NCBI RefSeq assembly: GCF_039555335.1
Contig: NC_092628.1
Location: forward strand, 81,246,315 to 81,310,314
Source of the DNA: Amphiura filiformis
Lineage: Eukaryota > Echinodermata > Ophiuroidea > Amphilepidida > Amphiuridae
Length of the DNA: 64,000 bases
Direction: 5' to 3'
Of this stretch, positions 16,477 to 50,620 are shown one piece after another. Made by a program: the position numbers and the translations under genes. The first letter of the stretch is position 1; each line of letters begins with the position of its first letter. Under the pieces are notes generated by a model. The model searched no databases. It was not told the DNA's origin and saw only the letters and a list, made by a program, of their open reading frames with translations.

Positions 16477-19400
16477 TTACGACTCATCAGGCAAGTCATC
16501 GGGCATTTCATCCGGCACGTCATTGGGCACGTAATCAAAGTTTAACTGTGCGAGTAAATCCATGACATTGAAATTGTCAAATAGATCATCCTCAATGTCT
16601 TCCTTGAAGATCGATGGATCCTCTTCCCACTCCTGAATCCGATCATGAACCTCATTTACCTCAGACTGAGGACCTATCATGGTAACTCGTCCATTCGGTC
16701 GTTTGCCCCGTCCCATTGGTCGTATTGATGTTTCTATCTTTGGGAACTCATTGCTGAGTCTCCCTTGCCATACCGTGAAAGATGTGTAGAGGTTGTTACC
16801 TACCGTTACCGACACCTGTATCACTTCTTCACTGGAGTTGTCATATACTTGAAGGATACTGTGTATTGTACCGCAGAGTGCTAATTGATGATACGCCTTT
16901 TCAGCCAGAGTAGCGAGCTTTCTTACGTGTGCTTTTGATAGCTTTGGTTTCTGGCACATTGCAGGAACATAGCGATGTTCTTTGTGATAAAACATCCTTG
17001 TTGCGCAGAATGACAAGAATTCCACTAATAGCTTGATAGGCTTTTCAATCTCCCCATATTCATCAAGCTGGGTTGCGTCTTCTGCATTCCAGTATGCTTG
17101 CTGCCCAGCTTCAACAATAAAGGACCTTTGTATAGCGAAACCACATAGAAGAACTAAGAGTTCTATTGTACCAACTTCTTTGTCCAGTTTCTGAGTCTCA
17201 CGCCATTGCATAAGGACTCCTGCTGCAGTCCTCATCCACGGATTCTCTTCTAGGTAATGGAATACAATCGGGAGATCTTCAATGCTCCGTGGGTCTCCTT
17301 GAGCAGCTTGGTACAGGTTTGCATCAATAGCGTTAAGTTGATAGCCTTCCGCTTCTATTGCAAGGCGTCCCATTACAGATGGAACTACAATATTCAACGC
17401 ATCAGGGTTACGGTTGCGCACCTCACACAGAACGTCTGCTACCACCCAAGGAAAGCTAAGATACTTCTTGTCCCTCTGCCTGTACGTCACCATATACCAT
17501 GCCGATGCTTTGGCAAGACTTTCTTCTGGGAATGTAAGCAGGCTGTCCCGCCCTCCAAACTCTTCAAAGAACGCCCTTCTTGTTTTGTTCCACAGATGTT
17601 TTACTTTCACTGTGATGATGTTCTTGACATCGTAGATCTCGTTGCGCTGGGACACACGTTTACTTAGTCGCCCGATATTTCCAGATAACGCCTCGCTTTC
17701 ACTAGTTATGCCGTACTGTGTCAAAATGGCTTCTAGTTGCCGATTGTAGCGATTCAGGGATCTTTCGGCATCCTGTTGAAAGGCTTCCCTTCCAGGATAT
17801 TCCAGAGCAACATCAGGAGGAACATCAACGGGGTCTTTCTGTTGAATGGCTATCCGATCTATCTGACGACATTGACGAAAGAGATGACCCAGGATTTTCC
17901 CTGATCTGTATGTCGATTTATCACGTTTTCCCATGAAATCTGGATACCTATACGGACGTTCTTCCTTTTCTAGATCTGGGGAATAACCTGTTTTGGCAAA
18001 ATCAACCGCTTTGGAGAATTTTTCGGCAATACTGACACAAACTCTGGAAAAGATGTTAGTTATGTCAGCTTGAGCCAAATGAGCGTTTGCTATCAGACCT
18101 ACGTTGTCGTTCTTGATGTAATCCGCTATGTACTTGATCATATCGGATACTTCAATAGGTCCATTATGCCTTAACTTCTGTGGTGGTGTAAAATCCATCG
18201 GCTCTTCGTTGGCTCCTTCAAAAGTTAGCTCTGGCATCCAAGTGACGAAGTATTCGTCTCCATCTAGATCTGATCCAGCCATTTCATCAGGATGTGGTCG
18301 TTTACCACGTTGAGGGAACACGACACAGTCAACCATATGATGCAATTCTGGCACATCGACTGCCTCAAATTTGCGAAGATCACCGGGTGCTAAGGCAGGA
18401 AACTTGGTGATAACTACAGTGCCCGTGCGTACTTTCTTGGTAACCTGAGGTTTGTCTATCTGCTTGGAGTACTGGATAAACACTTGACCATAGTTAAGCT
18501 CACCTGTTTCGTCCAAAACCCCAATCATATTTCTGCCAAACTGAGACGGGATATCAATTCTGGCTTTTCTCTGGAGCTGGCCTGTCAAAGACAATGTAGC
18601 AAAACAAATTGGAGTCACAAGTAAGCTATAATCAAATCCATGAAGTCAAGCTATGTTATATTGTACTTTTATTATTTTCATGCTTTTCTTGATACTGTTG
18701 CCCTTTTTGCCCGTCATTCATAGATTTGTGTTGAGTTGTGTGTGATTCATCAAGCTTTGGAAACTATAAACAAATTTACTTTCCGCCAGCAGACAAATGC
18801 ACAGGTAGGATTGCTTATAGAGCAAACTACACTGATTTTAGCCTGTATCTTTGTGTATTTAGAAGTTGTGAATTCTTACCTATGCTATTTCGGTAAACAG
18901 CAAGTAGAAGTCCGCGGAAAAACGGTTCTGAGGTTAATCTTATGCCAGCTTCAACCACTTTGCGATAGTTGATGGACGTCTGTTGCGCTGCTCTTCTAGA
19001 TAGCGACTTCGCTGCTACATCATCGTCAAAGAACATTCCTCCCAGTTCATACAGCAAACCTTCCTGGAGTTCTTTGAAAATATCGTCTCCTACTCCAAGT
19101 CCAGACAAGAGAGTTATTGCTTGACGATTCAGATACAGCCGACCTGTTAATGATCAATATTGTTTGGACAAGATGGTGTGTAATCGACAACTTACACGGT
19201 CTATTTAAAATTAGAATTTCTTTTGCTCATTTTTGGATATACAAAATTGTTCACCATTACTTTATGCTGCCCATGATTTGCATAGGATTTACGTATTTGG
19301 TTCTATTTCATAAGAACTTCCAATCCAATCCCCTACCCACCCATCTCCAGTTCTGTCTCTCATTTGGTATCTCCTGTGTTTAGTGTTTTTGAATTTTAGT

Positions 19401-22169
19401 AAAATGAAATCTGTTAATTGTCTGGTCTTTTCTATGGAATACTGTCCTACGCCCCAAAGTTGGAGCTAAGTGGACAGGATTGATGGTTGCGCAATGTGGG
19501 TGAAGAAGTTACATGAGGCGGCTACTTTGAATGACTTTGTACTGGTTATGTTGATGATTTCTTCTGGTAGTGAGTTCTAATCTCTCGTAGTGAGAGGAAT
19601 AAAGAGGTTCTTGTAGCAGTCTTTGCTAGCCTGGATTAGGATGTAGCAGCTCTTATTTGGATAGCGAAGTTTGTGAGCCTGATGATTTTTCTACCGGTAG
19701 CGAGGTGTTCTACTAAATAAAACATTAATAACATTTCAAAACATTTTTCTTCTTTATAGCTTACATGGTTTCGAGTTGTTCATGATCTCTATCGTTTTGT
19801 GATCGCTTTGGAATTTTTCCATGCTCGTACGGTAGATGAGTTTATCGCCGTCGAGTCTTGGATCTATTCCTATCATTCCCTTACATCCTGCATATCGGAT
19901 CTGGAAAGCTGATGGGATCTTCTTTTTCCTGTTCCCTGTTATCTATTAATTAAATTATTATATGAAACAAAGTAGAGCGATAAGTGGATGTCAATATCAT
20001 AACGAGGTCATCTGGGTATTTACTTCTACTGTACTGCACACCCACCTTGCAGCAGTGGTGCAATGAATTGGCTACAAGAGCGTACTACAGATCAACTTAG
20101 AAGGAAGCCAGTGCAGTCTTCCTTCTCTTGCTCTAAAATTATTGTTTCGGTAATCTTTTGTCCGCGGACACCGAACGTGGGATCCACTTTATCTCCCATT
20201 GGTTTAAGTAATAATAATAATAAGTAATACTCTACATATTTTCATTGACTGGCGATCGCGGCTTTAAATTCGTGATAGCCCGAAATGTTATACTGATCTC
20301 TTGATCAGACTAGACCGTTCCAGAACGAGCAAAACAATGGAAATTATTAATGTATCCCTAAAACAAATTGGAACCCAGATCCGGACCCAAAAGTCCAAAC
20401 TGATGTCTTACCTTTGCAGCTAGCGATGAAGAAACTCTACCAATACCATCAGAGAAACAGTACTTTCCATCAGCACTCTTAATATCATCATCACGCTCCA
20501 CCTGTCCCGCTTCCACGGTGACTTTTACACTTTCTTCAGATGTAGAGAAACACTGTCCCATTCGAGAGACGTAAGTGGCCACACACGTGATGTTGGTAAA
20601 GGTCCCCATCCATTGCCTGACATTACTGGTTGTGTTTCCTTTCAGGTCTATCGAGTAGAGCCAACAACCATGATCTCTCAGTTGACTATTAGAGCAAGCG
20701 AGGAACTCGTAGCAACGGTCACCAATGTGAATTCCTGAAGTGAGAACATCCACGACCCGACGTGTTATCTCGTCCCCCTGTGAGGTATCAAAACTACCAA
20801 GCTTGGTGAAAGTTTCGTCTCGGAACACAACACGCATGCAAAATTCTTCCCCGTATTCTCGCAGAACTCTATTCTCGGCCATTAGTTCTGCTGGTAGGAG
20901 AAGACATCGGGTTGGAGTAACTATAGCGCGTCGAACGAATCTACAATTATCGTAATGGTCGTCTTCTACATCGTCGCTATCAAGAGCAGCTTTGAAATTG
21001 ATCTCAAACTGTTCAGCTAGGTCAAGAAATCTATCTCCTTCCAGTGTTGGATCCACCTGTAACGCCAATTGTTGAAGCGCTTTCAGAGCTGCAGGATGGT
21101 TCTTGAGATGGATTTTGTTAAGCATAGCGAAAAGTCGTGTTGCTCTATCTGTGATCAAAAATCCTTGCGACAAAAGACACTCTAATATATACACCAGATC
21201 AAAATCCCCACCAAATCGTGGCAAAGCAGCTGACGCTGTTGGGAATCTCGTAAACACGTGTGTCCAATGAATCCTGTATTTGAAAACTTGGAATCGGCTG
21301 ATGACTCCTTGGAACTTTTGGCATGATTTCTCTGAGACTGATATTGAAAGAACGGACGAATTGCCAATGATCTCTGTACTACAACAGCAAGTTCGTGTTA
21401 CTCTTTTTACAGTTGTGTCAGAATCACGATCACGAACAATTTGGTGGAATGTAGGTGGTGCCTTAAGCATGAAGTATACAGAAAGTCCAGGTCTATCTTG
21501 TGGATAATCTACAAGAACGAATTCTTGCAGATCATCGTAACGTACGCGAAGTCTGTACTCGTACTCGACTCCTCTATCGGACTGACAATGGAATAGCATG
21601 GTAAAGAATCTACTGTCGTGCTCAAAGTCAATGGAAGTGGACTTGTCTCGAGACTTGTCTTTGTTACCCTTTCTTACTAGCTTTACTGTGTCAGGATTAA
21701 TAAGTGATATGTGTTTGTAATGTTCTACAAATGTCCATCTATCTTCCATGCATCCGAGTGAAAAACTGCATAATTTGATGTTTTCATGAACATTTGATGT
21801 TCGGCCCTTGCGTGTATATGCTGCTTCCATGTCGGTTGACATCCATAATTTCCAGTTGTACGTATTGCAAAGTTCGCACCAAAGACGACATGAATGGAGA
21901 AATTGATTGAAGAAGTGGTCGGGTTCGGTTCCATGATAATTAATATTGAACTCACAGTAATAAGGGATTTGTATGCTTGCAGCGCTTAGAAGTGATATTC
22001 CTTCTTCCCTGTGCTCTCTAAAGTTGTGCAAGAGACCACCAAAAGTGCATTCGATAAAGTTGGGACAGCGATTCAAGGTGCCTTGGTCAGCACAGACCAC
22101 GGTCAGTTTGGTATGATGTAGAGTACATTGACCGGTGCCCCGATATCCGGAAGCATATCCGGAAGCCAT
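16477..22169 (-). CDS. Cellular RNA-dependent RNA polymerase, copy 1 (4 coding exons)
   Basis: Predicted exons on the minus strand are 20412-22169, 19765-19942, 18880-19143 and 16477-18581. All introns are GT-AG, and phases 0, 1 and 1 join without a stop to give 1434 aa. The protein follows the eukaryotic RdRP family (QDE-1/EGO-1/RDR). Motifs are VRRAIVTPTR (about 412-421), FLACSNSQLR (489-498), RMGQCFS (536-542), FSDGIGR (572-578), IPSAFQIRY (595-603), LNRQAITLLSGLGV (650-663), VLDETGEL (755-762) and PQRGKRPHP (823-831). The catalytic DLDGD, which binds metal, is at 838-842 (bases 18256-18270). By family, it copies RNA templates into dsRNA for small-RNA pathways. The N-terminal 350 residues match nothing I recognise. 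The tail is acidic and ends in PDE/PDD repeats. The start is supported by an in-frame TGA just upstream. This is the most diverged of the three copies. Confidence 0.92.
19440..19690 (-). mobile_element. LINE ORF2 C-terminal fragment in RdRP copy 1 intron 2
   Basis: Read on the minus strand, this segment encodes a KDCYKNLFIPLTTRD-NSLPEEI-type stretch, the usual end of Jockey/CR1-like LINE polymerases, with an in-frame stop. Introns 2 of copies 2 and 3 are only about 280 bp, while this one is 621 bp, so the extra DNA is an insertion private to copy 1. A related fragment lies at 28253-28592. Confidence 0.6.
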
Positions 22170-22214
22170 AATTTGCGAATCGGCGGCAACCAGAGTATTG
22201 CGTCACCTGCGTTA

Positions 22215-22253
22215 TTAACAGAGGTACCAAAACATGGTTTCGTCAATAATTCT
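22215..22253 (-). promoter_or_regulatory. 5' splice acceptor and short upstream ORF of RdRP copy 1
   Basis: TTTTATCTTTCAG just beyond 22253 is a good acceptor and is conserved before the coding exon in all three copies. In the leader an ATG at 22235 opens a six-codon frame closed by TAA. A same-position mini-ORF is present in the other two copies, so it could dampen translation of the main ORF. Confidence 0.5.
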
Positions 22254-22328
22254 CTGAAAGATAAAATATTTGGTTACAGGTCAATAGTCAGAAGGGTCAC
22301 TTGTGAAAAAAGAACAATGAAGATCGTT

Positions 22329-23792: not shown

Positions 23793-26097
23793 TGAGATAT
23801 GGAACACGTCGCGCCAAGTATTGTAGTCGTCCAGGGCTGGAAAATATTATAAATCTTGCTTTTCTGTGTGTATTGGTGGTGATCCAGGGGTAGGAAATTG
23901 TACTATTTGTGTCACCTTGGTTCTGAACGCATCGAGCATATTTGGAGGTCATCCAGGGACAGGAAAGAGTACTTATTGTTTTACCCCCAGGCCGGGGTTT
24001 TACCCTAATTCTTCGTAGAGATATGGAACACATCGAGCATTGGTGGTCATCCAGAGACAGGAAAGAGTACTTATTGTGTTACCTTGATTCTTTGTAGAGA
24101 TATGGAACACATCGAGCATTGATGGTCATCAAGGGGCAGGAAAGAGTAGTTATTGTGTTACCTTAATTCTTTGTAGAGATATGGAACACATCGAGCATTG
24201 ATGGTCATCCAGAGACAGGAAAGAGTACTTATTGTGTTACCTTGATTCTTTGTAGAGATATGGAACATATCGAGCATTGGTGGTCATCAAGGGGCAGGAA
24301 AGAGTACGTGTGTTACCTTGATTCTTTGTAGAGATATGGAGCACATCGAGCCTTGGTGGTCATCCAGAGGCAGGAAAGAGTACTTATTGTGTTACCTTGA
24401 TTCTTTGTAGTTGGAACACATCGAGCATTAGTGGTCATCCAGAGGCAGGAAAGAGTACTTATTGTGTTACCTTGATTCTTTGTAGAGATATGGAACACAT
24501 CGAGTATTGGTGGTCATCCAGGGACAGGAAAGAGTACTTATTATATTACCTTGATTCTTTGTAGAGATGTGGAACACATCGAGCATTTGTGGTTATCCAG
24601 GGGCAGGAAAGAGTACTTATTGTGTTACTATGATTGATTCTTTGTAGAAAATTGTTAAACACATCGAGTATTGCTGGTCATCCAGGGGCAGGAAAGAGTT
24701 GGCCTACTTATTGTGTTAACTTGATTCTTTGTAGAGATATGGAACACGTCGAGCATTGGTGGTCATCAGGGGCAGGAAAGAGTACTTATTGTGTTACCTT
24801 GATTCTTTGTAGAGATAAGGAACACATCGAATATTGGTGGTCATCCAGGGACAGGAAAGAGTACTTATTATGTTACCTTGATTCTATGCAGAGATATGGG
24901 ACATATCGAGCATTGGTGGTCATCCAAGGGGCAGGAAAGAGTACTTATTGTGTTACCTTGATTCTTTGTAGAGATATGGAACACGTCGAGCATTGGTGGT
25001 CATCCAGGGACAGGAAAGAGTACTTATTATATTACCTTGATTCTTTGTAGAGATGTGGAACACATCGAGCATTTGTGGTCATCCAGGGGCAGGAAAGAGT
25101 ACTTATTGTGTTACTATGATTGATTCTTTGTAGAAAATTGTTAAACACGTCGAGTATTGCTGGTCATCCAGGGGCAGGAAAGAGTTGGCCTACTTATTGT
25201 GTTAACTTGATTCTTTGTAGAGATATGGAACACGTCGAGCATTGGTGGTCATCAGGGGCAGGAAAGAGTACTTATTGTGTTACCTTGATTCTTTGTAGAG
25301 ATATGGAGCACATTGAGCATTGGTGGTCACCCAGGGGCTGGAAAGAGTACTTATTGTGTTTCCTTGAATCTTTGTAGAGATCTGGAACACGTCGAGCATT
25401 GGTGGTCACCCAGGGGCTGGAAAGAGTACTTATTGTGTTACCTTGATTCTTTGTAGAGATATGGAACACGTCGAGCATTGGTGGTCACCCAGGGGCTGGA
25501 AAGAGTACTTATTGTGTTTCCTTGAATCTTTGTAGAGATATGGAACACGTCGAGTATTGGTGGTCATCCAGGGGCTGGAAAGAGTACTTATCGTGTTACC
25601 TTGATTCTTTGTAGAGATACAGAACACATTGACTGGTCATCCAGTGGCAGGAAAGAGTACGGTGGTCATCCAAGGGCAGGAAAGAGTACTTATTGTGTTA
25701 CCTTGATTCTTTGAGGAGATATGGAACATATCGAGCATTGGTGGTCATCCAGGGGCAGGAAAGAGTACTTATTGTGTTACCTTGATTCTTTGTAGAGATA
25801 TGGAACATATCGAGCATTGGTGGTCATCCAGGGGCAGGAAAGAGTACTTATTGTGTTACCTTGATTCTTTGTAGAGATATGGAACATATCGAGCATTGGT
25901 GGTCATCCAGGGGCTGGAAAGAGTACTTATTGTGTTACTTTGATTCTTTGTAGACATATGGAAGACATGGAGCATTGGTGGTCATCCAGGGGCAGGAAAG
26001 AGTACTTATTGTGTTACTTTGATTCTTTGTAGAGATATGGAAGACATCGGGCATTGGTGGTCATCCAGGGGCAGGAAAGAGTACTTATTGTGTTACA
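23793..26097 (+). repeat. 79-bp satellite array 1 (about 29 monomers)
   Basis: Head-to-tail monomers of 79 bp follow the pattern GAGATATGGAACACATCGAG, CATTGGTGGTCATCCAGGGG, CAGGAAAGAGTACTTATTGT, GTTACCTTGATTCTTTGTA. Variants include GGTCACCCAGGGGCTGG and occasional deletions. A block beginning about 24634 recurs at 25120, pointing to internal duplication of about 486 bp. Small open frames across it (HWWSSRGRKEYLLCYLDSL-like) are by-products: 79 is not a multiple of 3, so frames rotate. There are no unique spacers, so this is not a CRISPR-like array. Confidence 0.95.
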
Positions 26098-28252
26098 TGT
26101 TTTGATGGAGCACATGCATCATTTTTCATCATTCTGGCCGGGTGCATTCCGGTTATCTTTTATCACATGATATACAGACAAATGACAATGAACGACAATT
26201 ATACCATGATTTTGGGTCAAAGAGCATGTTTTAACTAATTCTGAAGAGGAAATATATACCTTTTAATATCGCGGAATGTGGCAAAATATTGTTTTCTGAA
26301 TTGACAGTCGTCGTGATAATTTCCCAAAAACTGAACCCCCTGAGTGTATCTAATAATTTACAGAAAAAAATTATAATCACAACATTTACCATGTAATAAC
26401 AAGACGTGCATTGGTTAAATTTGGTAAAAATCTTTTAATGCATAAATATACTTACAAAACATATAAATATAACATGTTCACCACTCATTTTTCTGAAAAC
26501 TCTTGTTTTATTTTATTTTATAATTTTATTTCATTAGAACAAGATTACAAACAATTGTTATTAACAGTCATACAATCATGAAATAGTAATGTGAAGATCA
26601 CAACATTTATCTGTAACTTTCTTCAGTTTGATCACAAAATAAGATAAACTCGTCATGCAGTGTATAATTTAACATACAGAAGTGGGAAAAATATTGAAAA
26701 TTATTCTTCATCAGCTAAACAAGCACACATTTTAGGTACTTAATTTGTAAAAGGTCCCCAATTCTCCAAATATAAGAAGGGATTATACCAATCGTAATCT
26801 AACATTGGCCTTTCTTACGAGGCTGCAGAAGCTCTAATTGAAGACCTGAGCGCAAGAAGACCATAAGTCCACTTGGCCCATCAACATGTATACACTATGC
26901 GTATAGTATACAAATACGTATATACTGCCATGAGAGGTTCTGGTTAAAACTATGGGCCCGAGGTGAGATCAATATTACTATTGATATCAATGAACAAGAA
27001 TCTATTAATGAAGGATATAATTTCGTATAGTTTGGTAATGTTTTATACATGTTCAGGGGCCAAAACAAATCTTTCACAACCTTTCATGATGTTTTCACCC
27101 TGGAACATGTATTAGACATAAAAACCCTCAGCAACTATACGTAAGTTTAGTGTATACATGTTGAGGGGCCAAGTGGACTTACGGCCTTCTTGCGCTCAGG
27201 TCTTCAATTGTTCTCTGAAGGGTTCTTCAATGTTTAGGAACCACTTGAGGGTTCAAGTGTGAGGGTTCTTCAAGAGGACACTTTAGAACCATTTTGAAAC
27301 ATTTTTTTGCAAGAGTGGTATGAAAATTGGTAGGATGAAACAGTATGACGAGTTATGATGCTGCGTAATGTTGTGTCATGTTATTTGCATATTTATTCAT
27401 GCTAATTAGATTTGCATACCTGGACCAGACTACATTTTAATTTATATACATGCTATATACATACTCGTGCATAATTATTTTACAGCCCCACATATGCTTG
27501 TTTATGAAACTAAACAAATAGCTATACTTAACAATATTAGATTGATACATAACAAGAAAACAAAGCAAATTTAGAAGAAGTAAAAGCTAATTAAACATTT
27601 ATACAAATTTGTTGCACTATCCAATCGCGATTGGTAATGTGTTCCAGAGTTGACAATCCATTCGACCGCCAGTGGTATTCGCCGCGAAATAGTGATGTGC
27701 AAATGTTCATCATTAATTTTTTGGCACAAATAATTTTGACAAAATATGACGTCACTTACATTAACATCAATCTCCTAATTTGCATATAGCCGTCATATCC
27801 CCAGCTAGCTCGCCCACGTGATTGGTTCTTCAGCGATCTAGGTATTATTTACATCTATGGAACAGTATAACGTCAGGGCAATACATAGAAAAAATTGTGC
27901 AAACACATTGCTATGGTAATTCATCCTGTTACATAACTACTTCTACTGCGATTAAAGACTGAAGCCAATGAGACCTTTAATCTACAACTGAATTTGTCTC
28001 TGATTGATTTTTGACCAACGAGGTAGAGCTTTGACAATTTTACTTCATTTGTCAAAGGTCAATCACTCGTCGCTCAGCAAGACAGCAACTGTGAGTTTGC
28101 AACCGAAATTGCCGCAGCCAGCGTATTATGTGGTCACGCAAAACATCAAGGTACATTAGTGCTGGCGTTGACTTGTGTATGTGTCAAAGTCGATCAACCC
28201 ATTTCCATGATCAATCAGAAAAATGTTGCAGCTGGCATCGAATACTGGGAAT
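26098..28252. repeat. Shared downstream flank of RdRP unit 2
   Basis: This matches 38694-42205 nearly base for base once the insertions there are removed. Landmarks are TTTTTTGATGGAGCACATGC at the satellite edge, CATGCAGTGTATAATTTAAC, GACCTGAGCGCAAGAAGACC, and GCTCAGCAAGACAGCAACTG near 28071. A palindrome-like pair GACCTGAGCGCAAGAAG (near 26844) and CTTCTTGCGCTCAGGTC (near 27183) bounds about 360 bp, probably a MITE; copy 3 keeps only its left part. I see no gene. Confidence 0.75.
26842..27202. mobile_element. MITE-like element with GACCTGAGCGCAAG inverted ends
   Basis: TTGAAGACCTGAGCGCAAGA at the left and TCTTGCGCTCAGGTCTTCAA at the right are perfect inverted repeats, followed inward by matching AAGTCCACTTGGCCC and CAACATGTATACACTA words. 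Copy 3 (about 39450-39560) has lost the right half. No coding content. Confidence 0.7.
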
Positions 28253-28592
28253 GTATACAGTCTTGAGTTTGGTACTGTCCAACACTCCAGAATGGAGACA
28301 AACGGCCAGGATGTGTGATCTGCGCTGTGGTTTTGATAATTCTTGCTAGTCTTGGTTGCTTAGATACTTGGTTACTGCAGTTTTGAAGGTTTCTGGTTTT
28401 GTGATGCTGATTAGGTGTGGTGGAAGAGAGTTCCAATCACGTATTGTCTTTGGTACAAATGAGTTTTTGTAGCAGTCTTTATTTGCTGATATAGTTGAGT
28501 AAGATTCCGGATGATGATGCCGCGACTGGCGCTGGACGGGCTGTAGAAGGGCAGGGACAGGTCACCTAGATTTGCTTGTTGAAAAACGCAAG
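28253..28592 (-). mobile_element. LINE ORF2 C-terminal fragment, private to unit 2
   Basis: The minus strand encodes a typical LINE polymerase end: KDCYKNSFVPKTIRDWNSLP followed by TFKTAVTKYL. The equivalent position in unit 3 joins GTATAC directly to AACTAAAGCAA, so this piece is an insertion in unit 2 (or a clean loss from unit 3). A GTA[TA/TG]AC-like repeat at both ends may be a target duplication. It is a truncated, inactive fragment. Confidence 0.65.
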
Positions 28593-29391
28593 TACATGTA
28601 CAACAACTAAAGCAATTTGTTGATATTTCAAATATTTATTGAAGGGGTGTTAGTGGGGTCTATCTAAAATTTGTTCCTTTTTTCCCGTGTCAAAATCTAG
28701 TCATCGCAGACTTCTCTATTTCGGGGCTGTACAGTATATTTAGTAATATTCCGGAACAGGGAAAATTAATATTGGGGGCATTTTGGCAAGCCGAAAGAGG
28801 GAGAGGGGCAAATTTTGGATTATTACCCAACAAAGTGTTCAACAATGCAAATTCTGCTCGCTGCTACACCAATGATAGGCGTAAATCACAAAAACGTCTC
28901 GCAGCCTATAAACTTTTGCGCCGTACGCGGCCGCGGGGGGGGGGCAGACGGATCATCATGGGGGTGCTGCTACAGCCCGGTGTAACAGTCGGTACTTGTT
29001 GTCGGAAAATCTTCAACTAAGAAGTACACTGCAGTTGTTTTTAGTCAAATGGCCAAACTAGAATTAATGTGGCTCGTGCTGACTCGCTTGAGAAACCGCC
29101 CCATGGGGGCCCCGCCCGGGGGGGGGGCGATGAGCAAATATTCCCCTCTCCGTCTTAACCCCACCCCAGTCAAAACTAATGGGCTTCCAACATTTGGCTT
29201 ATTTAAATGAGAGTGGGACGCCAGGGTTGGAAGGAGGAGAAGAATTTGATAGATAGACCGTCGAGGATGAGAGGCGAGCTGCTCAGGGGCAAGCTTTGCC
29301 CAATTTATGATGAATAGGTTGAGTATCATTCGTTGCTTCTAAGCTCGTTTAAAGAAAACCAAATCAGTATCGCCGGTTACCACCAGATTTA
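28593..29391. other. 3' flank of RdRP copy 2
   Basis: This matches 43984-45015 of copy 3 apart from a MITE inserted there. It contains G/C runs (GGGGGGGG near 28936 and 29118) and no gene. TTTATT at 29388 gives AATAAA on the minus strand directly at the copy 2 stop codon. The same AATAAA in copy 3 (about 45013) is 240 bp past its stop, where it could serve as a polyadenylation signal. Confidence 0.5.
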
Positions 29392-29427
29392 TTACTCGAG
29401 TAGCATCGGAAGAGTTGATGCACTATC

Positions 29428-30041
29428 TTCTTCTTCTTCTTCTTCTTCTTCTTCTTCGTCTTCTTCGTCTTCTTCTTCGTCTTCTTCTTCTTCTTCTTCG
29501 ACGTACGATTCATCACGATAGTCATCGTATTCATCACGACCGTCATCGTACGATTCATCGTGATATTCATCGTACGATTCATCGTGATAGTCATTGTACG
29601 ATTTATCGTGATAGTCATTGTACGATTCATCGTGATAGTCATCGTACAATTCATCTCGATAGTCATCGTATTCTTCGTCGTCTTCTTCTTCTTCTTCTTC
29701 TTCTTCTTCTTCTTCTTCTTCTTCTTCTTCTTCTTCTTCTTCTTCTTCTTCTTCTTCTTCTTCTTCTTCTTCTTCTTCTTCTTCTTCTTCTTCTTCTTCT
29801 TCTTCTTCTTCTTCTTTCTTCGTCTTCTTCGTCTTCTTCTTTTTCTTCTTCTTCTTCTTCTTCGTCGTCTTCTTCTTCTTCTTCTTCTTCTTCGTCTTCT
29901 TCTTCTTCTTCTTCTTCGTCTTCTTCTTCTTCTTCTTCTTCGTCTTCTTCTTCGTTTCTTCTTCGTCTTCTTCGTCTTCTTCTTCTTCTTCTTCTTCTTC
30001 TTCTTCTTCTTCTTCTTCTTCTTCTTCTTCTTCTTCTTCTT
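29428..30041. repeat. (GAA/TTC)n expansion inside RdRP copy 2
   Basis: Plus-strand CTT/TTC runs include one pure tract at about 29681-29814 (about 44 units) and another at about 29965-30041, separated by TCG-interrupted and frame-shifted runs. The block 29499-29675 between the repeats is a second copy of the 24-bp tail repeats at 30042-30250. So a (TTC)n plus tail-repeat segment was duplicated and expanded. On the gene strand it reads as Glu/Lys/Arg with no stop in any frame. Long GAA/TTC tracts can form triplexes and impede transcription (known for this repeat class). Confidence 0.95.
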
Positions 30042-30270
30042 CGACGTACGATTCATCACGATAGTCATCGTATTCATCACGACCGTCATCGTACGATTCA
30101 TCGTGATATTCATCGTACGATTCATCGTGATAGTCATTGTACGATTCATCGTGATAGTCATTGTACGATTCATCGTGATAGTCATTGTACGATTCATCGT
30201 GATAGTCATCGTACGATTCATCGCAATAGTCATCGTACGATTCATCAGACAAGTCATCAGACAAGTCATC
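30042..30270 (-). repeat. 24-bp coding repeats (DESYDDYH tail) in RdRP copy 2
   Basis: CGTACGATTCATCGTGATAG-type units of 24 bp (with TCAT completing the unit) repeat about seven times and encode an eight-residue Asp/Tyr/Ser/Glu motif. They are followed toward the protein body by 15-bp units (TCATCAGACAAGTCA) encoding DLSDD. The repeat is in frame with the polymerase. Confidence 0.85.
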
Positions 30271-33200
30271 AGACAATTCATCAGTGTCATCCTCAAAGAT
30301 GTCTTCTTCGAAGACCCTTGGGTTAACTTCCCATTCTTGAATCCGATCCTGAACCTCATTTACCTCAGACTGAGGACCCATGATGCTTACTTTTCCATTC
30401 GGTCGTTTGCCCTGTCCCGTTGGTCGTATTGATATCCCTACCTTTGGGAACTCATTGCTAAGTATCCCCTGCCATGCTGTGAAAAATGAACCGAGGTCAT
30501 TACCTACGGTTACGAACTCCTCTTTGAATTCTTCACTGGAGTTGTCATATACTTGAAGGATACTGTGTATTGTACCGCAGAGTGCCAATTGATGATACGC
30601 CTTTTCAGCCAGAGTAGCGAGCTTTCTTACATGTGGGTTTGATAACCTTGGTTTCTGACACGATACAGGAACATACCTATGCTCTTCGTGATAAAACATC
30701 CTTGTTGCGCAGAATGAAAAGAATTCCACTAATAGCTTGATAGGCTTTTCATCCTTCCCATGGTCATCAAGCTGGGTTGCCTCTTCTTCATTACAGTATG
30801 CTTGCTGTCCAGCTTCAATAATAAAAGACCTTTGTATAGCGAAACCACAGAGAAGAACTAAGAGTTCTATTCTTCCAACTTCTTTGTCCAGGTTTTGAGT
30901 CTCACGCCATTTCATTAGCACTCCTGCAACAGTCCTCATCCACGGATTTTCTTCTAGGTAGTGAAATATAACCGACAGATCTTCATTGCTCCGTGGGTCT
31001 CCTTGTGTAGTTTGGCACAGAGTCTCATTAGTAGCGTTAAGTTGATAGCCTTCAGCTTCTATCGCAAGGCGTCCCATTACAGATGGAACTACAATAGTCA
31101 ACGCATCGCGGTTACGTTTTCGCACCTCACAGAGAACGTCTGATACTACCCAAGGAAAACTAAGATACTTCTTGTCCCTCTGCTTGTACGTCACTATATA
31201 CCATGCCGATGCTTTGGCAAGACTTTCTTCCGGAAAAACAAGCAGCCTGTCTTTTCCTCCAAACTCATCAAAGAATGCTCTTCTTGTTTTGTTCCACAGG
31301 TGTTTTACCCTTAATGTGACGATTTTCTTGGCATCGTAGATCTCGTTGCGCTGGGACATCCGTTTACTTAGTCGCCCGATATTTCCGGACAATGCCTCGC
31401 TTTCACTAGTAATGCCATATTGTGTCAAAATTGCTTCTAGCTGCCGATTGTAGCGATTCAGGGATCTTTCGGCATCCTGTTGAAAGGCTTCCCTTCCTGG
31501 ATATTCCAGCACGACATCAGGAGGAACATCGATGGGTTCTCTCTGTTGAATGGCTATCCGATCTATCTGACGACATTGACGGTAGAGATGACCCAGGATT
31601 TTACTTGATCTGTATGTCGATTTGTCAAGTTTGCCCATGAACTCTGGATACATATATGGACGTTCTCCTTTTCCTAGATCTGGAGAATAACCGGTTTTGG
31701 CAAAATCTACCGCTTTGGAGAATTTTTTAGCAATACTCATACAAACTTGGGAAAAGATGCCATTTCTGTCAGCTTGAGCCAAATGAGCGTTTGCTATCAG
31801 ACCTACGTTGTCGTTCTTGATGTAATTCGCCATGTACTTGATCATATCGGATACTTGAATAGGTCCGTCGTGCCGTAACTTCTGTGGTGGTGTAAAATCC
31901 ATCGGCTCTTGGTTGGCCCCTTCAAAACGGAACCCTGGCATCCAAGTGACGAAGTACTCATCTCCATCTAGATCTGATCCAGCCATTTCATCAGGATGTG
32001 GTCGTTTACCTCGCTGAGGGAACACGACACAGTCAACCATATGATGCAATTCTGGCACATCGACTGCCTCAAATTTGCGGATATCACCGGGTGCTAAGGC
32101 AGGAGACTTGGTGATAACTACAGTACCCATGTGTACTTTCTTCGCAACCTGAGGTTTGTCCATGTGCTTGGAGTACTGTACAAACACTTGACCGGAGTTT
32201 AGCTCACCTGTTTCGTCCAAAACACCAACCATATATCTACCGAGATGAGAGGGAATTTCAATTCTGGCTTTTCTCTGTAGTTGGTCTGTCGGTGGTCAAA
32301 GAACGAAATGGAATGTAAAGTAAATCTTACTGTTTTATTACTTTGATGCTTTCTTGATAATATTATCTTTTTAATTGTTCTATAGCTGTTTGTTGAGTTT
32401 TGGCTCTACCTTTGGATGGACGATCTTAACATTTGGACTATCTGCGCTACGTACGTTTGTTTCACAATCACCAGAAATGTGTACACAAGTAACATCGATT
32501 CTAATTCTAGAGCAAATACTGCCATTTTTTGTTCGTTTCTTCGGATCGTTTATTAGAAGTTGTGTAATCTTACCAGCTCTTACCTATTCTATTTCGGTAA
32601 ACAGCAAGCAGAAGTCCGCGGAAATACGGTTCTGAGGTTAAACTTATACCAGCTTCAACCACTTTGCGATAGTTGATGGACGTCTGTTGCGCTGCTCTTC
32701 TAGATAGCGACTTCGCTGCTACGTCATCGTCAAAGAACATTCCTCCCAGTTCATACAGCAAACCTTCCTGGAGTTCTTTGAAAATATCGTCTCCTACTCC
32801 AAGTCCAGACAAGAGAGTAATAGCTTGACGATTCAGATACAGTCGACCTGTTAACGATCGAATATTGTTTCATATCGTGATAAACTAACGACAGAAAAAA
32901 AGTTTTACCCAAATTGTATTGTAGGGATCCTAGCCAAGATGGCGTGTAATCGAAAATTGAAACGGTAACTATTAACCGGGTTGTACAATATTCGTGTGGG
33001 CGCGCGCAATTTAAGCAAATTATTGTGTTGCTATTTATGGGTTTTTGTAAAGTGAACTCTATTAATGATAAATTATACTACATAAGCTAATAAAGATATT
33101 TTAAAAGTATTTTTCCTTCTAGCTTACATGGTCTCGAGTTGTTCATGATCTCTATCGTTTTGTGATCGCTTTGGAATTTTTCCATGCTCGTACGGTAAAT

Positions 33201-35482: not shown

Positions 35483-35518
35483 TCAGAGGCACCAAAACAT
35501 GGTTTCGTCAATAATTCT
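35483..35518 (-). promoter_or_regulatory. 5' splice acceptor and short upstream ORF of RdRP copy 2
   Basis: The acceptor ATCTTTCAG ends at 35519, and the exon begins 35518. An ATG at 35500 opens a five-codon frame (MFWCL) ending TGA at 35483. The same mini-ORF exists in copy 3. Confidence 0.5.
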
Positions 35519-35612
35519 CTGAAAGATAAAATGTTTATTGCATGATTACAGGTCGATAATCAGAAGGATCATTAGTCCGAACACCCAACAGAGCCGGTCG
35601 TTGTAAACCATA

Positions 35613-35745
35613 ATCCTTACCCTAACCTATAACCTAAACCCTATACCTACAATACTAACTCTAAACCTAACACTGGCACTAACCACAATCTAACTCTATA
35701 TGCCGAACCCTAAATCCTAACCCAAATCTTAACCCTAATCCGAAC
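35613..35745. repeat. Degenerate CCCTAA (telomere-like) repeat, copy 2
   Basis: Words CCTAACCTATAACCTAAACC and TCTTAACCCTAATCC, in the same relative place as in copies 1 and 3, within the predicted 5' intron. Confidence 0.6.
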
Positions 35746-36129
35746 CTGAAATATCATAAACCCTGTTCATCCATCCTTTGCGTACTATATCCTTTAGATA
35801 CACGAGCTGTTCCTTATTGAGTTAGGGGCATTGAAAATGGGGGAAAATGTCTACTTTTATGATTGGTTTAATTTGAGAACGGATTTGCAGCTAGCGATAA
35901 AACCATACGCTTCTTTAACCCTACAGGCCTAGGAGTAAAACTTAAAAATTACACGACAAATAGTAAGGTGTAAATATTAGAACTTGTCAACTTCCATACA
36001 TTTATATAAATCAGGGCGTGAAATAATGAATAGTGTATCAACGCCCCGCCATTAGTTCACATTTATATATTCAATAAATGCAACACAAGTCATTATGGTT
36101 ATTTACATACACAATAATACTTTACATAC

Positions 36130-36390
36130 CCAGAAGTTCATGCGATTTCCTTCACAGTTTGTACGTTAATGACCGAATGGCATAGCCTTATTTAGCTCCC
36201 TGCTGAATGTGTTCGGTGAAGTGTGGTGATTTGACACTTTAATGACAGTGAACAAACAGTATACTGTATCGCAGCAAGCTGGCGACTCATTTAATTCAAA
36301 CATATAAGAGATTAATGCACCGTTAACCGATAAATAATGGATAATAATCGATTGCATGAGTGTACTGCAATGAGGGGAATTCCCAACTAG
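36130..36390 (-). promoter_or_regulatory. Predicted promoter and noncoding exon of RdRP copy 2
   Basis: GGGGAATTCCC (36374-36384) is preserved. The TATA-like run seen in copies 1 and 3 is largely replaced; only a CTTATATG word remains near 36305. A donor GGGTATGTAAAG begins the predicted intron at 36129. With the frameshift in the coding exon, the altered TATA region suggests relaxed constraint on this copy. Confidence 0.4.
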
Positions 36391-37054: not shown

Positions 37055-38693
37055 GAGATATAGAACACGTCGAATATTGGTGGTCATCAGTGGCGTGCCT
37101 GGTCATCCAGAGGCAGGAAAGAGTACTTATTATGTTTCCTTAATTCTTTGTAAAGATATGGGACACACTGAGCATTGTGGTCATTAAGGGACAGGAAAGA
37201 GTACTTATTGTGTTACCTTGATTCTTTGTAGAGACATGGAACACATTGAGCATTGGTGGCCATCTAGGGGTAAGAAAGAGTACTTATTGTGTTACCTTGA
37301 TTCTTTGCAGAGATATGAACACATCGAGCATTGGTGGTCATCCAGAGGTAGGAAGGAGTACTTATTGTGTTACTTTGATTCTTTGTAGAGATATGGAACA
37401 CATCGAGCATTGGTGGTCATCCAGGGGCAGGGAAGAGTACTTATTGTGTTACCTTGATTCTTTTTGGAGAGGTGGAACATATCGAGCATTTGTGGTCAAC
37501 CAGGGGCTGGAAAGAGTACTTATTGTGTTACCTTGATTCTTTGTGGAGAGATGGAACATATCGAACATTGGTGGTCATCCAGGGGCTGGAAAGAGTACTT
37601 ATTGTGTTACCTTGATTCTTTGTAGAGATATTGAACACATCGAACATTTGTGGTCATCCAGGGGCAGGAGAAAGAGTACCTTGATTCTTTGTAGAGATAT
37701 GGAACACATCGAGCATTTGTGGCCATCCAGGGGCAGGAAAGAGTACTTATTGTGTTACCATGAACCTTTGTAGAGATACAGAACACATCGAACATTTGTG
37801 GTCATCCAGGGGCAGGAAAGAGTACTTATTGTGTTACATTTTTTGATGGAGACATGGAACACATTGAGCATTGGTGGCCATCTAGGGGTAAGAAAGAGTA
37901 CTTATTGTGTTACCTTGATTCTTTGTAGAGATATGGAACACATCAAGCATTGGTGGTAATCCAGGGGCAGGAAAGAGTACTTATTGTGTTCCTTTGATTC
38001 TTTGTAGAGATATGGAAGACATCAAGCATTGGTGGTCATCCAGGGACAGGAAAGAGTACTTATTGTGTTACCTTGATTCTTTTTGGAGAGGTGGAACATA
38101 TCGAGCATTTGTGGTCATCCAGGGGCAGGAAAGAGTACTTATTGTGTTACCTTGAACCGTTGTAGAGATATGGAACACATTGAGCATTGGTGGCCATCTA
38201 GGGGTAAGAAAGAGTACTTATTGTGTTACCTTGATTCTTTGTAGAGATATGGAACACATCGAGCATTGGTGGTCATCCAGGGGCAGGAAAGAGTACTTAT
38301 TGTGTTACCTTGATTCTTTTTGGAGAGGTGGAACATATCGAGCATTTGTGGTCAACCAGGGGCTGGAAAGAGTACTTATTGTGTTACCTTGATTCTTTGT
38401 GGAGAGATGGAACATATCGAACATTGGTGGTCATCCAGGGGCTGGGAAGAGTACTTATTGTGTTACCTTGATTCTTTGTAGAGATATTGAACACATCGAA
38501 CATTTGTGGTCATCCAGGGGCAGGAGAAAGAGTACCTTGATTCTTTGTAGAGATATGGAACACATCGAGCATTTGTGGCCATCCAGGGGCAGGAAAGAGT
38601 ACTTATTGTGTTACCATGAACCTTTGTAGAGATACAGAACACATCGAACATTTGTGGTCATCCAGGGGCAGGAACGAGTACTTATTGTGTTAC
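37055..38693 (+). repeat. 79-bp satellite array 2 (about 20 monomers, with an 856-bp internal duplication)
   Basis: Same monomer and orientation as array 1. Positions 37246-37800 recur at an 856-bp (partly 934-bp) offset, including matching rare variants such as GGCAGGAGAAAGAGTACC. At about 37836 the sequence ACATTTTTTGATGGA, which normally marks the right edge of the array, occurs inside it. This shows that part of the array together with its edge was duplicated in tandem. Confidence 0.93.
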
Positions 38694-43976: not shown

Positions 43977-44020
43977 TGGCTAATGTATACAACTAAAGCA
44001 ATTTGTTGATATTTCAAATA

Positions 44021-45251: not shown

Positions 45252-48200
45252 TTAATCTCGATAGTCATCGTATTCATCGCGATAGTCATCGTATTCATCG
45301 CGATAGTCATCGTATTCATCACGATAGTCATCGTATTCATCGCGACAGTCATCGTACGATTCATCGTGATAGTCATTGTACGATTCATCGTGATAGTCAT
45401 TGTACGATTCATCGCAATAGTCATCGTACGATTCATCAGACAAGTCATCAGACAATTCATCAGTGTCATCCTCAAAGATGTCTTCTTCGAAGACCCTTGG
45501 GTTAACTTCCCATTCTTGAATCCGATCCTGAACCTCATTTACCTCAGACTGAGGACCCATGATGCTTACTTTTCCATTCGGTCGGTTGCCCTGTCCCGTT
45601 GGTCGTATTGATATCCCTACCTTTGGGAACTCATTGCTGAGTATCCCCTGCCATGCTGTGAAAAATGAACCGAGGTCATTACCTACGGTTACGAATTCCT
45701 CTTTGAATTCTTCACTGGAGTTGTCATATACTTGAAGGATACTGTGTATTGTACCGCAGAGTGCCAATTGATGATACGCCTTTTCAGCCAGAGTAGCGAG
45801 CTTTCTTACATGTGGGTTTGATAACCTTGGTTTCTGACACGATACAGGAACATACCTATGCTCTTCGTGATAAAACATCCTTGTTGCGCAGAATGACAAG
45901 AATTCCACTAATAGCTTGATAGGCTTTTCATCCTTCCCATGGTCATCAAGCTGGGTTGCCTCTTCTTCATTACAGTATGCTTGCTGTCCAGCTTCAATAA
46001 TAAAAGACCTTTGTATAGCGAAACCACAGAGAAGAACTAAGAAATCTATTCTACCAACTTCTTTGTCCAGTTTTTGAGTCTCACGCCATTTCATTAGCAC
46101 TCCTGCAGCAGTCCTCATCCACGGATTTTCTTCTAGGTAGTGGAATATAACCGACAGATCTTCATTGCTCCGTGGGTCTCCTTGTGTAGTTTGGCACAGA
46201 TTCTCATTAGTAGCGTTAAGTTGATAGCCTTCAGCTTCTATCGCAAGGCGTCCCATTACAGATGGAACTATAATAGTCAACGCATCGGGGTTACGTTTAC
46301 GCACCTCACAGAGAACGTCCGATACTACCCAAGGAAAACTAAGATACTTCTTGTCCCTCTGCTTGTACGTCACTATATACCATGCCGATGCTTTGGCGAG
46401 ACTTTCTTCAGGAAAAACAAGTAGACTGTCTTTTCCTCCAAACTCATCAAAGAATGCTCTTCTTGTTTTGTTCCACAGGTGTTTTACCTTTAATGTGACG
46501 ATTTTCTTGGCATCGTAGATCTCGTTGCGCTGGGACATCCGTTTATTTAGTCGCCCGATATTTCCTGACAATGCCTCGCTTTCACTAGTGATGCCATACT
46601 GTGTTAAAATTGCTTCTAGCTGCCGATTGTAGCGATTCAGGGATCTTTCGGCATCCTGTTGAAAGGTTTGCCTTCCAGGATATTCCAGTGCAACATCAGG
46701 AGGAACATCGACGGGGTCTTTCTGGTGAATGGCTATCCGATCTATCTGACGACATTGACGGTAGAGATGACCCAGGATTTTACTTGATCTGTATGTCGAT
46801 TTGTCAAGTTTGCCCATAAAATCTGGATACATATATGGACGTTCTCCTTTTCCAAGATCTGGAGAATAACCGGTTTTGGCAAAATCTACCGCTTTGGAGA
46901 ATTTTTTAGCAATACTCATACAAACTTGGGAAAAGATGCCATTTCTGTCAGCTTGAGCCAAATGAGCGTTTGCTATCAGACCTACGTTGTCGTTCTTGAT
47001 GTAATTCGCCATATACTTGATCATATCGGATACTTGAATAGGTCCGTCGTGCCGTAACTTCTGTGGTGGTGTAAAATCCATCGGCTCTTGGTTGGCCCCT
47101 TCAAAACGGAGCCCTGGCATCCAAGTGACGAAGTACTCATCTCCATCTAGATCTGATCCAGCCATTTCATCAGGATGTGGTCGTTTACCTCGCTGAGGGA
47201 ACACGACACAGTCTACCATATGATGCAATTCTGGCACATCGACTGCCTCAAATTTGCGGATATCACCGGGTGCTAAGGCAGGAGACTTGGTGATAACTAC
47301 AGTACCCGTGTGTACTTTCTTCGTAACCTGAGGTTTGTCCATGTGTTTGGAGTACTGTACAAACACTTGACCGGAGTCTAGCTCACCTGTTTCGTCCATA
47401 ACACCAACCATATATCTACCGAGATGAGAGGGAATTTCAATTCTGGCTTTTCTCTGTAGTTGGCCTGTCGGTGGTCAAAGAACGAAATGGAATGTAAAGT
47501 AAATCTTACTGTTTTATTACTTTGATGCTTTCTTGATAATATGATCTTTTTAATTGTTCTATAGCTGTTTGTTGAGTTTTGACTCTACCTTTGGATGGAC
47601 GATCTTAACATTTGGACTATCTGCGCTACGTACGTTTGTTTCACAATAACCTGATCACCAGAAATGTGTACACAAGTAGCATCGATTCTAATTCTAGAAC
47701 AAACACTACCATTTTCTGTTCGTTTCTTTGGATCGTTTATTAGAAGTTGTGTAATCTTACCTATGCTATTTCGGTAAACAGCAAGTAGAAGTCCGCGGAA
47801 AAACGGTTCTGAGGTTAATCTTATGCCAGCTTCAACCACTTTGCGATAATTGATGGACGTCTGTTGCGCTGCTCTTCTAGATAGCGACTTCGCTGCTACG
47901 TCATCGTCAAAGAACATTCCTCCCAGTTCATACAGCAAACCTTCCTGGAGTTCTTTGAAAATATCGTCTCCTACACCAAGTCCAGACAAGAGAGTAATAG
48001 CTTGACGATTCAGATACAGTCGACCTGGTAATGATCAAATATTGTTTCATATCGTGAAAAACTAACGACAGGAAAGAGGTTTTACCCAAATTGTATTGTA
48101 GGGATCCTAGCCAAGATGGCGTGTAATCGAAAATTGAAACGGTAACTATTAACCGGGTTGTACAATATTCGTGTGAGCGCGCAATTTAAGCAAATTATTG

Positions 48201-50620
48201 TGTTGCTATTTATGGGTTTTTGTAAAGTGAACTCTATTAATGATAAATTATACTAAATAAGCTAATAAAGATATTTTAAAAGTATTTTTCCTTCTAGCTT
48301 ACATGGTCTCGAGTTGTTCATGATCTCTATCGTTTTGTGATCGCTTTGGAATTTTTCCATGCTCGTACGGTAGATGAGTTTATCGCCGTCTAGTCTTGGA
48401 TCTATTCCTATCATTCCCTTGCATCCTGCATATCGGATCTGGAAAGCTGATGGGATCTTCTTTTTCCTGTTCCCTGTTATCTGTTAATTAAATTATTATA
48501 GGAAATAAAAAGAGTGATAAGTGGATGTCACTATCACAACGAGAATTGGCAAAGCAAGAGCGTACTATACAGAGCATTTTAAAAGGAAATTAGTCTTCCG
48601 TCTTTGCTCTAAAATTATTGTTTTGGTAACGGACACCGAACGTAGGATTCACTTTATCCGCCATTGGTAAAATAAGTAATATTCGTGAAATTTCCATTGA
48701 CTGGCAAAGTTAATGCAGAACCTCAAATACTTGTGACAGCACGAAATGTTTATATTGATCTCTTGATCAGGCTAGACCGTTCCAGAAAGAGCAAAACAAT
48801 AAATATTATTATTTTATCCCTAAAATAAATTCGGTGGAACCCAAATGCGGACCCGAGAGTCCAAACTATTGCCTTACCTTTGCAGCTAGCGATGACGAAA
48901 CTCTGCCGATACCATCAGAGAAACAATACTTCCCATCAGCACTCTTAATATCATCTTCATGCTCCACCTGCCCTGCTTCCACAGTGACTTTTACACTTTC
49001 TTCAGATGTAGAGAAACACTGTCCCATTCGAGAGACGTAAGTGGCCACACACGTGATGTTGGTAAAGGTCCCCATCCATTGCCTGACATTACTGGCCGTG
49101 TTTCCTTTCAGGTCTTTCGAGTAAAGCCAACAACCATGATCTCTCAGCTGACTATTAGAGCAAGCGAGGAAATCGTAGCAACGGTCACCAATGTGAATTC
49201 CTGAAGTGAGAACATCCACGACCCGACGTGTTATCTCATCACTCTGTGAGGTATCAAAACTACCGAGCTTACCGAAGGTTTCGTCTCGGAACACAACGCG
49301 CATGCAGAATTCTTCACCGTATTCTCGCAGAACTCTATTCTCCGCCATTAGTTCGGCTGGTAGGAGAAGACATCGGGTTGGAGTAACTATAGCGCGTCGA
49401 ACGAATCTACAATTATCGTAATGGTCATCTTCTACATCGTCGCTATCAATTGCAGCTTTGAAATTGATCTTAAACTGTTCAGCTAGATCAAGAAATCTAT
49501 CTCCTTCCAGTGTTAGATCCACCTGTAACGCCAATTGTTGAAGCGCTTTCTGAGCTGCATGATGGTCTTTGGGATGGATATTGTTAAGGATAGCGAAAAG
49601 TCTTGATGCTCTATCAGTGATCAAAAATCCTTGCGACAAAAGACACTCTAATATATACACCAACTCAAAATCCCCACCAAATCGAAGCAAAGCAGCTGAT
49701 GCTACCGATGTCGATATTCTTGTAGATACACATGTCCAGTAAATCTTGTATTTGAAAACTTGAAATCGGCTAATGACTGATTGGAAAGTACGGCATGATT
49801 CCTCTGAGACTGATATTGAAAGAACTGACGAATTACCAATGATCTCTGTACTACAACAGCAGGTCCGTGTTACTCTTGGCAACGGTGTATGTGAATCACG
49901 ATCAATTCGTTTGATAGTAGGTGGCGCCTTAAGCATGAAGTATACAGAAAGTCCAGGTCTATCTTGTGGATAATCTACAAGAACGAATTCTTGCAGATCA
50001 TCATAACGTACGCGAAGTTTGTACTCGTACTCGACTCCTCTATCGGACTGACAATGGAATAGCATGGTAAAGAATCTACTGTCATGTTCAAAGTCAATGG
50101 AGGTGGACTTGTCTTTGTTACCTTTTGTTACTGTGTCAGGATTAATAAGTGATATGTGTTTGTAATGTTCTACAAATGTCCATCTATCTTCCATGCATCC
50201 GAGTGAAAAACTACTTAATTTGATGTCTACATGAACATTTGATGTGCGGCCCGTGCGTGTATATGCTGCTTCCATGTCGGTTGACATCCATAATTTCCAG
50301 TTGTACGTATTGCAAAGTTCGCACCAAAGACGACATGAATGAAGAAATTTATTGAAGAAGTAGTCGGGTTCGGATCCATGATAAGTAGGCCTAATATTGA
50401 ACTGACAGTAATAAGGGACTCGTATGCTTGCAGCGCCTAGAAGTAAGCTCCCTTCCTCCCTGTGCTCTCTGAATTTGTGTAAGATACCACCGAAAGTGCG
50501 TTTGATTAAGTTGGGAAGACGATTCAAGGTGCCTTGGTCAGCACAGACCACTGTCAGTTTGGTATGATGTAGAGTAGCATGGTCATTGCCCTGGCCAGTA
50601 TCCCGATATCCAGAAGCCAT
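45252..50620 (-). CDS. Cellular RNA-dependent RNA polymerase, copy 3 (4 coding exons)
   Basis: Exons on the minus strand are 48878-50620, 48303-48480, 47761-48024 and 45252-47464. Introns of 397, 278 and 296 bp are GT-AG, and the joined frame is open for 1465 aa. All family motifs seen in copy 1 are present five residues earlier, including DLDGD at about 833-837 (bases 47139-47153), so a working polymerase is predicted. The C-terminal tail carries DLSDD units, then DESYDDY-type units (24 bp) and DDYRDEY units (21 bp), ending DDYRD before TAA. The body is very close to copy 2, but several patches (for example HYKHISLINPD, GIRLTSEPFF and DPVDVPPDVALEYPGR) follow copy 1 instead, suggesting gene conversion. 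The expected role is synthesis of dsRNA from RNA templates in RNA interference. The start codon is preceded by an in-frame stop and a conserved splice acceptor. Confidence 0.92.
45256..45440 (-). repeat. 21- and 24-bp coding repeats (acidic tail) in RdRP copy 3
   Basis: CGTATTCATCGCGATAGTCAT (21 bp, DDYRDEY) repeats about four times nearest the stop. It gives way to 24-bp CGTACGATTCATCGTGATAG-type units and then 15-bp TCATCAGACAAGTCA units. All are multiples of three and stay in frame. Confidence 0.85.

Follow-up and report, generated by a model that had tools for sequence, protein, structure and literature searches.

Three RdRP genes in tandem

We analysed a 64,000-nucleotide stretch of the genome of the ophiuroid Amphiura filiformis (NCBI RefSeq assembly GCF_039555335.1, contig NC_092628.1, positions 81,246,315 to 81,310,314 of the forward strand; hereafter the window), in which three genes for cellular RNA-dependent RNA polymerases (RdRPs) stand in tandem, all on the minus strand and each with four coding exons. 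Members of the RdRP family copy RNA from RNA. An earlier note, made by a model from the letters alone, had described three such same-strand copies carrying the motif DLDGD, and all three copies were found to have both the four exons and the motif. The array runs, as that note had it, from 16477, the last base of the copy 1 stop codon, to 50620, the first base of the copy 3 ATG. Among 20 open reading frames (ORFs) of at least 120 amino acids, each of the six long minus-strand ORFs between 16,477 and 50,653 matched the Pfam family RdRP (PF05183), as did a shorter ORF that forms exon 3 of copy 3.

For copies 1 and 3, spliced models with splice sites taken from the sequence gave open proteins of 1,434 and 1,465 amino acids, respectively, from four coding exons each. 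All three introns of both models are GT-AG and have phases 0, 1, 1, so that the identical splice phases of the earlier note hold for these two copies. The coding exons of copy 1 lie, in order and on the minus strand, at 20412..22169 (ATG at 22169, with the PH-like domain and the start of the RdRP domain), 19765..19942, 18880..19143 and 16477..18581 (DLDGD at 18270-18256, and the stop). Those of copy 2, also on the minus strand, lie at 33708..35449 (where the frame is broken at codon 536, in copy 3 numbering), 33128..33305, 32584..32847 and 29392..32285 (DLDGD at 31974-31960, and a long tail of E/K and D/E/Y repeats). The pattern used for copies 1 and 3 fits four of the six internal splice sites of copy 2; the remaining two, the donor of exon 3 and the acceptor of exon 4, have a differing base nearby and were placed by eye. 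Copy 3 occupies 48878..50620 (PH-like domain at 50239-49757), 48303..48480, 47761..48024 and 45252..47464 (DLDGD at 47153-47139, and an acidic repeat tail), again on the minus strand.

Intron 2 measures 621 bases in copy 1 vs 278 in copy 3. An ORF piece at about 19200-19650 within this intron of copy 1 resembles, by eye, another at 28349-28561 (both on the minus strand). We take both to resemble the tail of a retrotransposon protein, and the piece at 19200-19650 may explain the longer intron. Upstream of the coding region, an acceptor-like TTATCTTTCAG stands 84, 69 and 69 bases before the ATG of copies 1, 2 and 3, respectively, and between it and the main ATG lies a further ATG that opens a short frame (22170-22264, 35450-35544 and 50621-50715, minus strand). 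The retention of these elements suggests a non-coding first exon. Degenerate TTAGGG-like repeats were seen by eye on the minus strand, upstream of each ATG and no more than a few hundred bases from it, at about 22340-22440, 35600-35760 and 50780-50900.

Domains, catalytic motif and tails

Without its tail, the spliced protein of copy 3 matched PF05183 over the entire model (positions 1-582 of 582) with an E-value of 1.8e-170, which bears out the cellular RdRP identity proposed earlier, and RdRP exon pieces matched the family in all three copies. The minus strand contains the string DLDGDEYF once in each copy (at 18270, 31974 and 47153); no occurrence was found on the plus strand of the window. 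In every copy DLDGD agrees with DbDGD, the rule given for the RdRP active site (PMC6396948), and it aligned under the DLDGD of RDR2. Ahead of the polymerase domain, all three copies carry the Metazoan RdRP associated PH-like domain (PH_met_RdRP, PF25359), with 58.4, 59.4 and 58.9 bits in copies 1, 2 and 3 (cut-off 27); in the spliced protein of copy 3 it covers residues 128-288 with 56.8 bits against the same cut-off. The description of the N-terminal half as long and unrecognised therefore does not hold. Being metazoan, the domain supports an animal origin of the locus, in line with the placing of the genes in an animal genome.

The rest of the N-terminal half gave no sign, at the level of sequence, of the extra lineage-specific activity that had been suggested for it, and about 250 residues there are without a family match. 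Residues 1-127 and 289-411 of copy 3, and the piece 1-130 of copy 1 taken alone, listed no Pfam match with an E-value up to 10, a range in which the HMMER filters remove most matches above 0.1. A match of the copy 3 protein to DUF7752 fell below its cut-off (18 bits vs 29). When the three exon 1 proteins were used as a profile, RDR2 was matched where the core begins, and the other three rows returned were at chance level (E 0.79-1.9). AlphaFold, given the exon 1 protein and the three-row alignment, reached a mean predicted local distance difference test (pLDDT) score of 28.5, and the model was not used; the low score is probably due to a lack of relatives. No viral RdRP family appeared among the Pfam matches of copy 3, which up to an E-value of 10, and under the same HMMER filters, comprised RdRP, PH_met_RdRP and the sub-threshold DUF7752. 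No NCBIfam family was found for two exon pieces of copy 3. Relatives were sought with the exon 4 part, the N-terminal part lying outside these scans: the copy 3 exon 4 protein gave two pattern matches in a collection of viral contigs and the exon 4 alignment 33 in a collection of genome contigs, none of them confirmed.

The C-terminal tails differ among the copies. In copies 2 and 3 they are acidic and are encoded by 21-24 bp repeats rich in D, E and Y (29426-30246 and 45251-45463, respectively, minus strand), and that of copy 2 also contains a TTC run of about 372 bases, read as E and K on the minus strand. In copy 1 the sole repeat, at 16484-16536, has a 12-bp unit and 4.4 copies.

Selection and the broken frame of copy 2

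We compared the coding sequences pairwise by the Nei-Gojobori method with our own script, the tails being left out. Synonymous (dS) and nonsynonymous (dN) divergence were 0.215 and 0.063 between copies 1 and 3 (dN/dS 0.29; 1,352 codons), 0.205 and 0.066 between copies 1 and 2 (dN/dS 0.32), and 0.077 and 0.019 between copies 2 and 3 (dN/dS 0.24; 1,349 of 1,356 codons, without gaps). On these ratios purifying selection is present in all three pairs, and the genes thus are, or were, working. For copies 1 and 3, dN/dS was 0.40 in codons 1-297, 0.21 in codons 298-581, 0.13 in exon 2, 0 in exon 3 and 0.29 in exon 4. Positive selection in codons 61-120 of this pair (dN/dS 2.2) was considered and set aside as too small, with one synonymous and eight nonsynonymous differences. 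The synonymous differences of the same pair are unevenly spread over 22 windows of 60 codons (chi-square p 9e-5, the windows being taken as equal and the last, shorter one left out).

Two copies are intact and one is damaged, as the earlier note had it: copies 1 and 3 are open, and copy 2 is broken in exon 1. Exon 1 of copy 2 has 1,742 bases vs 1,743 in copy 3; one base is missing, the frame breaks at codon 536 and a stop follows soon after. With the tail set aside, comparison of 1,356 codons turned up no further gap or in-frame stop; exons 2 and 3 match those of copy 3 in length, and intact copies lie on both sides. As read, copy 2 could yield only a product of about 540 amino acids that includes the PH-like domain but lacks the catalytic motif. 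Judged by its sequence, copy 2 is either a recent pseudogene or the result of a sequencing error; the idea that the break falls inside a run of equal bases was not borne out by sequence comparison. One could go further and take the whole array to be decaying, with no copy that matters any longer. The broken frame of copy 2 and the wide variation of the repeat tails would fit such an account, but the dN/dS of 0.24-0.32 in the three pairs and the finding of a single frame break in the 1,356 codons of copy 2 compared argue against it, and we consider it very unlikely.

Satellite arrays and collinear units

A 79-bp satellite lies upstream of each gene, with 133 of its 138 monomer matches in four arrays, to which no strand is assigned: 24000..26096 upstream of copy 1 (26 matches), 37100..38693 upstream of copy 2 (21), and 52076..57123 (65) and 58329..59891 (21), both upstream of copy 3. 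In one frame of its plus strand the satellite reads as a Walker-A-like stretch, GGHPGAGKST. This reading was rejected as unsupported: the P-loop matches in Pfam were all sub-threshold, and a unit of 79 bp is not divisible by three, so that a repeat protein made from the satellite is unlikely.

Between the arrays, copy 2 together with its 3' side (unit B, 26111..36389) is block-collinear with copy 3 and its 3' side (unit C, 38708-51540). Six collinear blocks of these unstranded units are 93.3-95.9% identical with gaps counted and 95.6-98.8% without, and unit C is longer by about 1.4 and 2 kb, in gaps between the matched blocks. The edge of unit B at 26,111 is the edge of the satellite mask. On the left the match extends into the satellite (24432-26957 vs 37100-39566), and the edge of the unit can consequently be placed no more finely than the array. 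That both edges of the units fall at satellites was an impression that rested on masked satellites, and the unmasked comparison weakened it for the right edge.

A mosaic tract in exon 1

Copies 2 and 3 are for the most part nearest kin. Within an exon 1 tract some 0.8 kb long (48905..49696 in copy 3 coordinates, minus strand) they lose this closeness, and all three copies are equidistant there (93-94%). At the 717 two-state sites of the gene body, patterns that unite copies 1 and 2, copies 1 and 3, and copies 2 and 3 number 30, 24 and 16 within the tract vs 37, 44 and 566 outside it. This contrast was reached in none of 500 permutations, which were corrected for picking the most extreme tract and treated sites as independent. 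Synonymous differences between copies 2 and 3 gave the same picture, with 36 at about 200 sites in codons 298-581 vs 27 at about 633 sites in codons 1-297 and exon 4 taken together (p 4e-9; the boundary was picked after viewing the data, and exons 2 and 3 were left out). No pair is close throughout the tract, so the donor is probably none of the three present copies, and a further donor copy or allele outside the window is probably implied. Exons 2 and 3 are 96.6-98.9% identical across the three pairs, beside introns of copy 1 that are 53-80% identical to those of the others; constraint, conversion or both could account for this.

Origin of the array

The arrangement of the units is consistent with unequal crossing-over between satellite arrays followed by conversion within the gene bodies. 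We propose, as the likeliest history, that the satellite arrays assisted unequal crossing-over and so gave rise to the gene copies, that gene conversion would then have swapped tracts among them, and that the two intact copies would be active polymerases making complementary RNA on RNA templates, which would enter an Argonaute or Dicer silencing pathway. Several observations weigh against this proposal. The closeness of copies 2 and 3 ends at the 5' end of the gene, short of the satellite on the right: their upstream flanks (35,623-36,389 in copy 2) are 75% identical (87% without gaps), similar to those of copies 1 and 2 (72%; 82% without gaps). Beyond the arrays upstream of copy 3, similarity to the beginning of units B and C extends over just 77 bases (79%), and one more match, of 31 bases, is at chance level. 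No donor for the mosaic tract lies within the window, and old polymorphism could mimic conversion. Because units B and C differ by 1-4% without gaps and the right edge lies off the satellite, we give the proposal, from crossing-over to silencing, an even chance.

A different account, which also weighs against ours, is that copies 2 and 3 represent a single gene in its two haplotypes, joined end to end by the assembler at the satellite, in which case the true array would have two genes. The collinearity of units B and C is what such a join would leave, and the junction between them falls inside satellite, a likely place for an assembly error. Copies 2 and 3 have introns that are 96.8-98.7% identical, a 3' flank at 97.8% and a dS of 0.03 in codons 1-297 and 0.05 in exon 4, and an assembly-made repeat is on record for one lancelet RdRP gene (PMC6396948). 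Against this stand the dS of the same two copies in the mosaic tract, 0.21 and thus of the size seen between paralogues, their divergent upstream flanks, and the insertions of about 1.4 and 2 kb by which the units differ. Nor can the account be applied to copy 1, which is a separate paralogue by its sequence: its dS of 0.21 and its introns lie beyond the allelic range. Uncollapsed haplotypes, which the earlier note had named as a possible refutation, thus fail for copy 1 and keep some force for copies 2 and 3, whose identity without gaps is about 96-99% once the mosaic tract and the 5' flank are set aside. Since the units differ by 1-4% without gaps over most of their length, we retain the joining of two haplotypes as a possibility, one that we do not favour.

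Our proposal of unequal crossing-over with conversion can be extended to a "gene accordion", in which the 79-bp arrays would repeatedly expand and contract the RdRP array by unequal crossing-over and conversion would shuffle tracts, with a donor outside the window. The same 1-4% divergence of the units without gaps and the same position of the right edge make us regard this extension as doubtful. Were it true, the number of RdRP copies, the intactness of each and the length of the acidic tails would vary from one individual to another.

A possible role in RNA silencing

Whether animal RdRPs outside nematodes act in silencing is disputed, with lancelet evidence set against evidence from tick cells. 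RdRPs are required for RNA interference (RNAi) in nematodes, and the RdRP product feeds silencing in nematodes, plants and fungi (PMC6396948). RdRP-dependent small RNAs are reported from tick cells (PMC10062562). We consider a silencing role for the predicted polymerases of A. filiformis the likelier reading, the arguments on either side coming from other organisms. The lancelet study counts against it: no role of RdRPs in RNAi was seen, and the lancelet genes are intact and transcribed without detectable small interfering RNA (siRNA) products (PMC6396948). The chief functional rival, a speculation already made for lancelets, is that the polymerases are retained for some function other than RNA silencing. 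The lancelet genes would be a precedent for it, but the tick-cell small RNAs and the need of nematode RNAi for RdRPs speak the other way, and we hold such a role to be rather unlikely. With two intact, selected copies side by side and a third that is possibly polymorphic, the locus offers a natural test case.

Other features of the window

A reverse transcriptase fragment lies at 13319-14080 on the plus strand (Pfam RVT_1, E 1.1e-34) and presumably derives from a non-LTR (non-long-terminal-repeat) retrotransposon. A perfect tandem repeat of two 92-bp copies occupies 63237-63421. This fragment is one of 142 ORFs with at least 55 amino acids. Twenty-nine further ORFs of that set, picked by hand and mostly from the longer ones, matched no Pfam family above its cut-off; four sub-threshold matches among them, to DUF6821, DUF5479, RAI16-like and NPFF, had 13.3-17.5 bits (cut-offs 24.9-27). 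Rfam gave no match at gathering scores in the window and ARAGORN no tRNA gene. A scan for bacterial-type promoters upstream of copy 3 was discarded as uninformative for an animal gene.

Comparison with known RdRPs

Compared by domain models, the three copies resemble metazoan RdRPs in that both PF05183 and PF25359 lie above their curated cut-offs, with the PH-like domain before the RdRP domain and the DbDGD motif in all three. They differ in standing as three tandem copies with satellite between them, and in the acidic tails of copies 2 and 3. Among solved structures, plant RDR2 (PDB 7roz and 7eu0, and also 7w82 and 7w84, which we take to be RDR2 as well; the four sequences bear the name RNA-dependent RNA polymerase (2)) was the best match over the catalytic part, with E 2.3e-65 to 8.4e-61, and it also matched where the core begins. 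N-terminal to about residue 329 of the exon 1 ORF and C-terminal to about residue 415 of the exon 4 ORF, there was no match to RDR2. Fungal QDE-1 (PDB 5fsw, and presumably 2j7n and 7y7p) shares the region of the catalytic motif (E 5.1e-14 to 3.4e-11), but 113-118 residues were matched, far more weakly than with RDR2. The closer match to RDR2 than to QDE-1 hints at a polymerase of the type of RDR1, RDR2 and RDR6, which form one grouping.

Several RdRP copies per genome are known in other animals. Branchiostoma lanceolatum has six RdRP candidates, three of them with an intact active site (PMC6396948), nine species of Acari have one to five copies (PMC7659050), and bdelloid rotifers have 38.9 copies on average (PMC7943196); RdRPs have been recorded from Hydra and Nematostella as well (PMC9923473). 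B. belcheri has six RdRP genes, one of which was missing from half of the individuals tested (PMC12373286). Compared by description, lancelets, mites and ticks, and bdelloid rotifers share multiple copies with A. filiformis but differ from it in that no tandem array with satellites is described in the portions of these reports drawn on here. Nor did any title or start of an abstract among the matches listed in our literature search, whose scope left most subscription journals outside, point to a satellite-flanked tandem RdRP array in an animal. If satellites drive copy number, they would provide a simple route to fast gain and loss of RdRPs, and this would fit the B. belcheri gene that half of the individuals lack. 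Multi-copy animal RdRPs are thus already known, and the interesting side of the A. filiformis locus is its satellite-rich, mosaic array.

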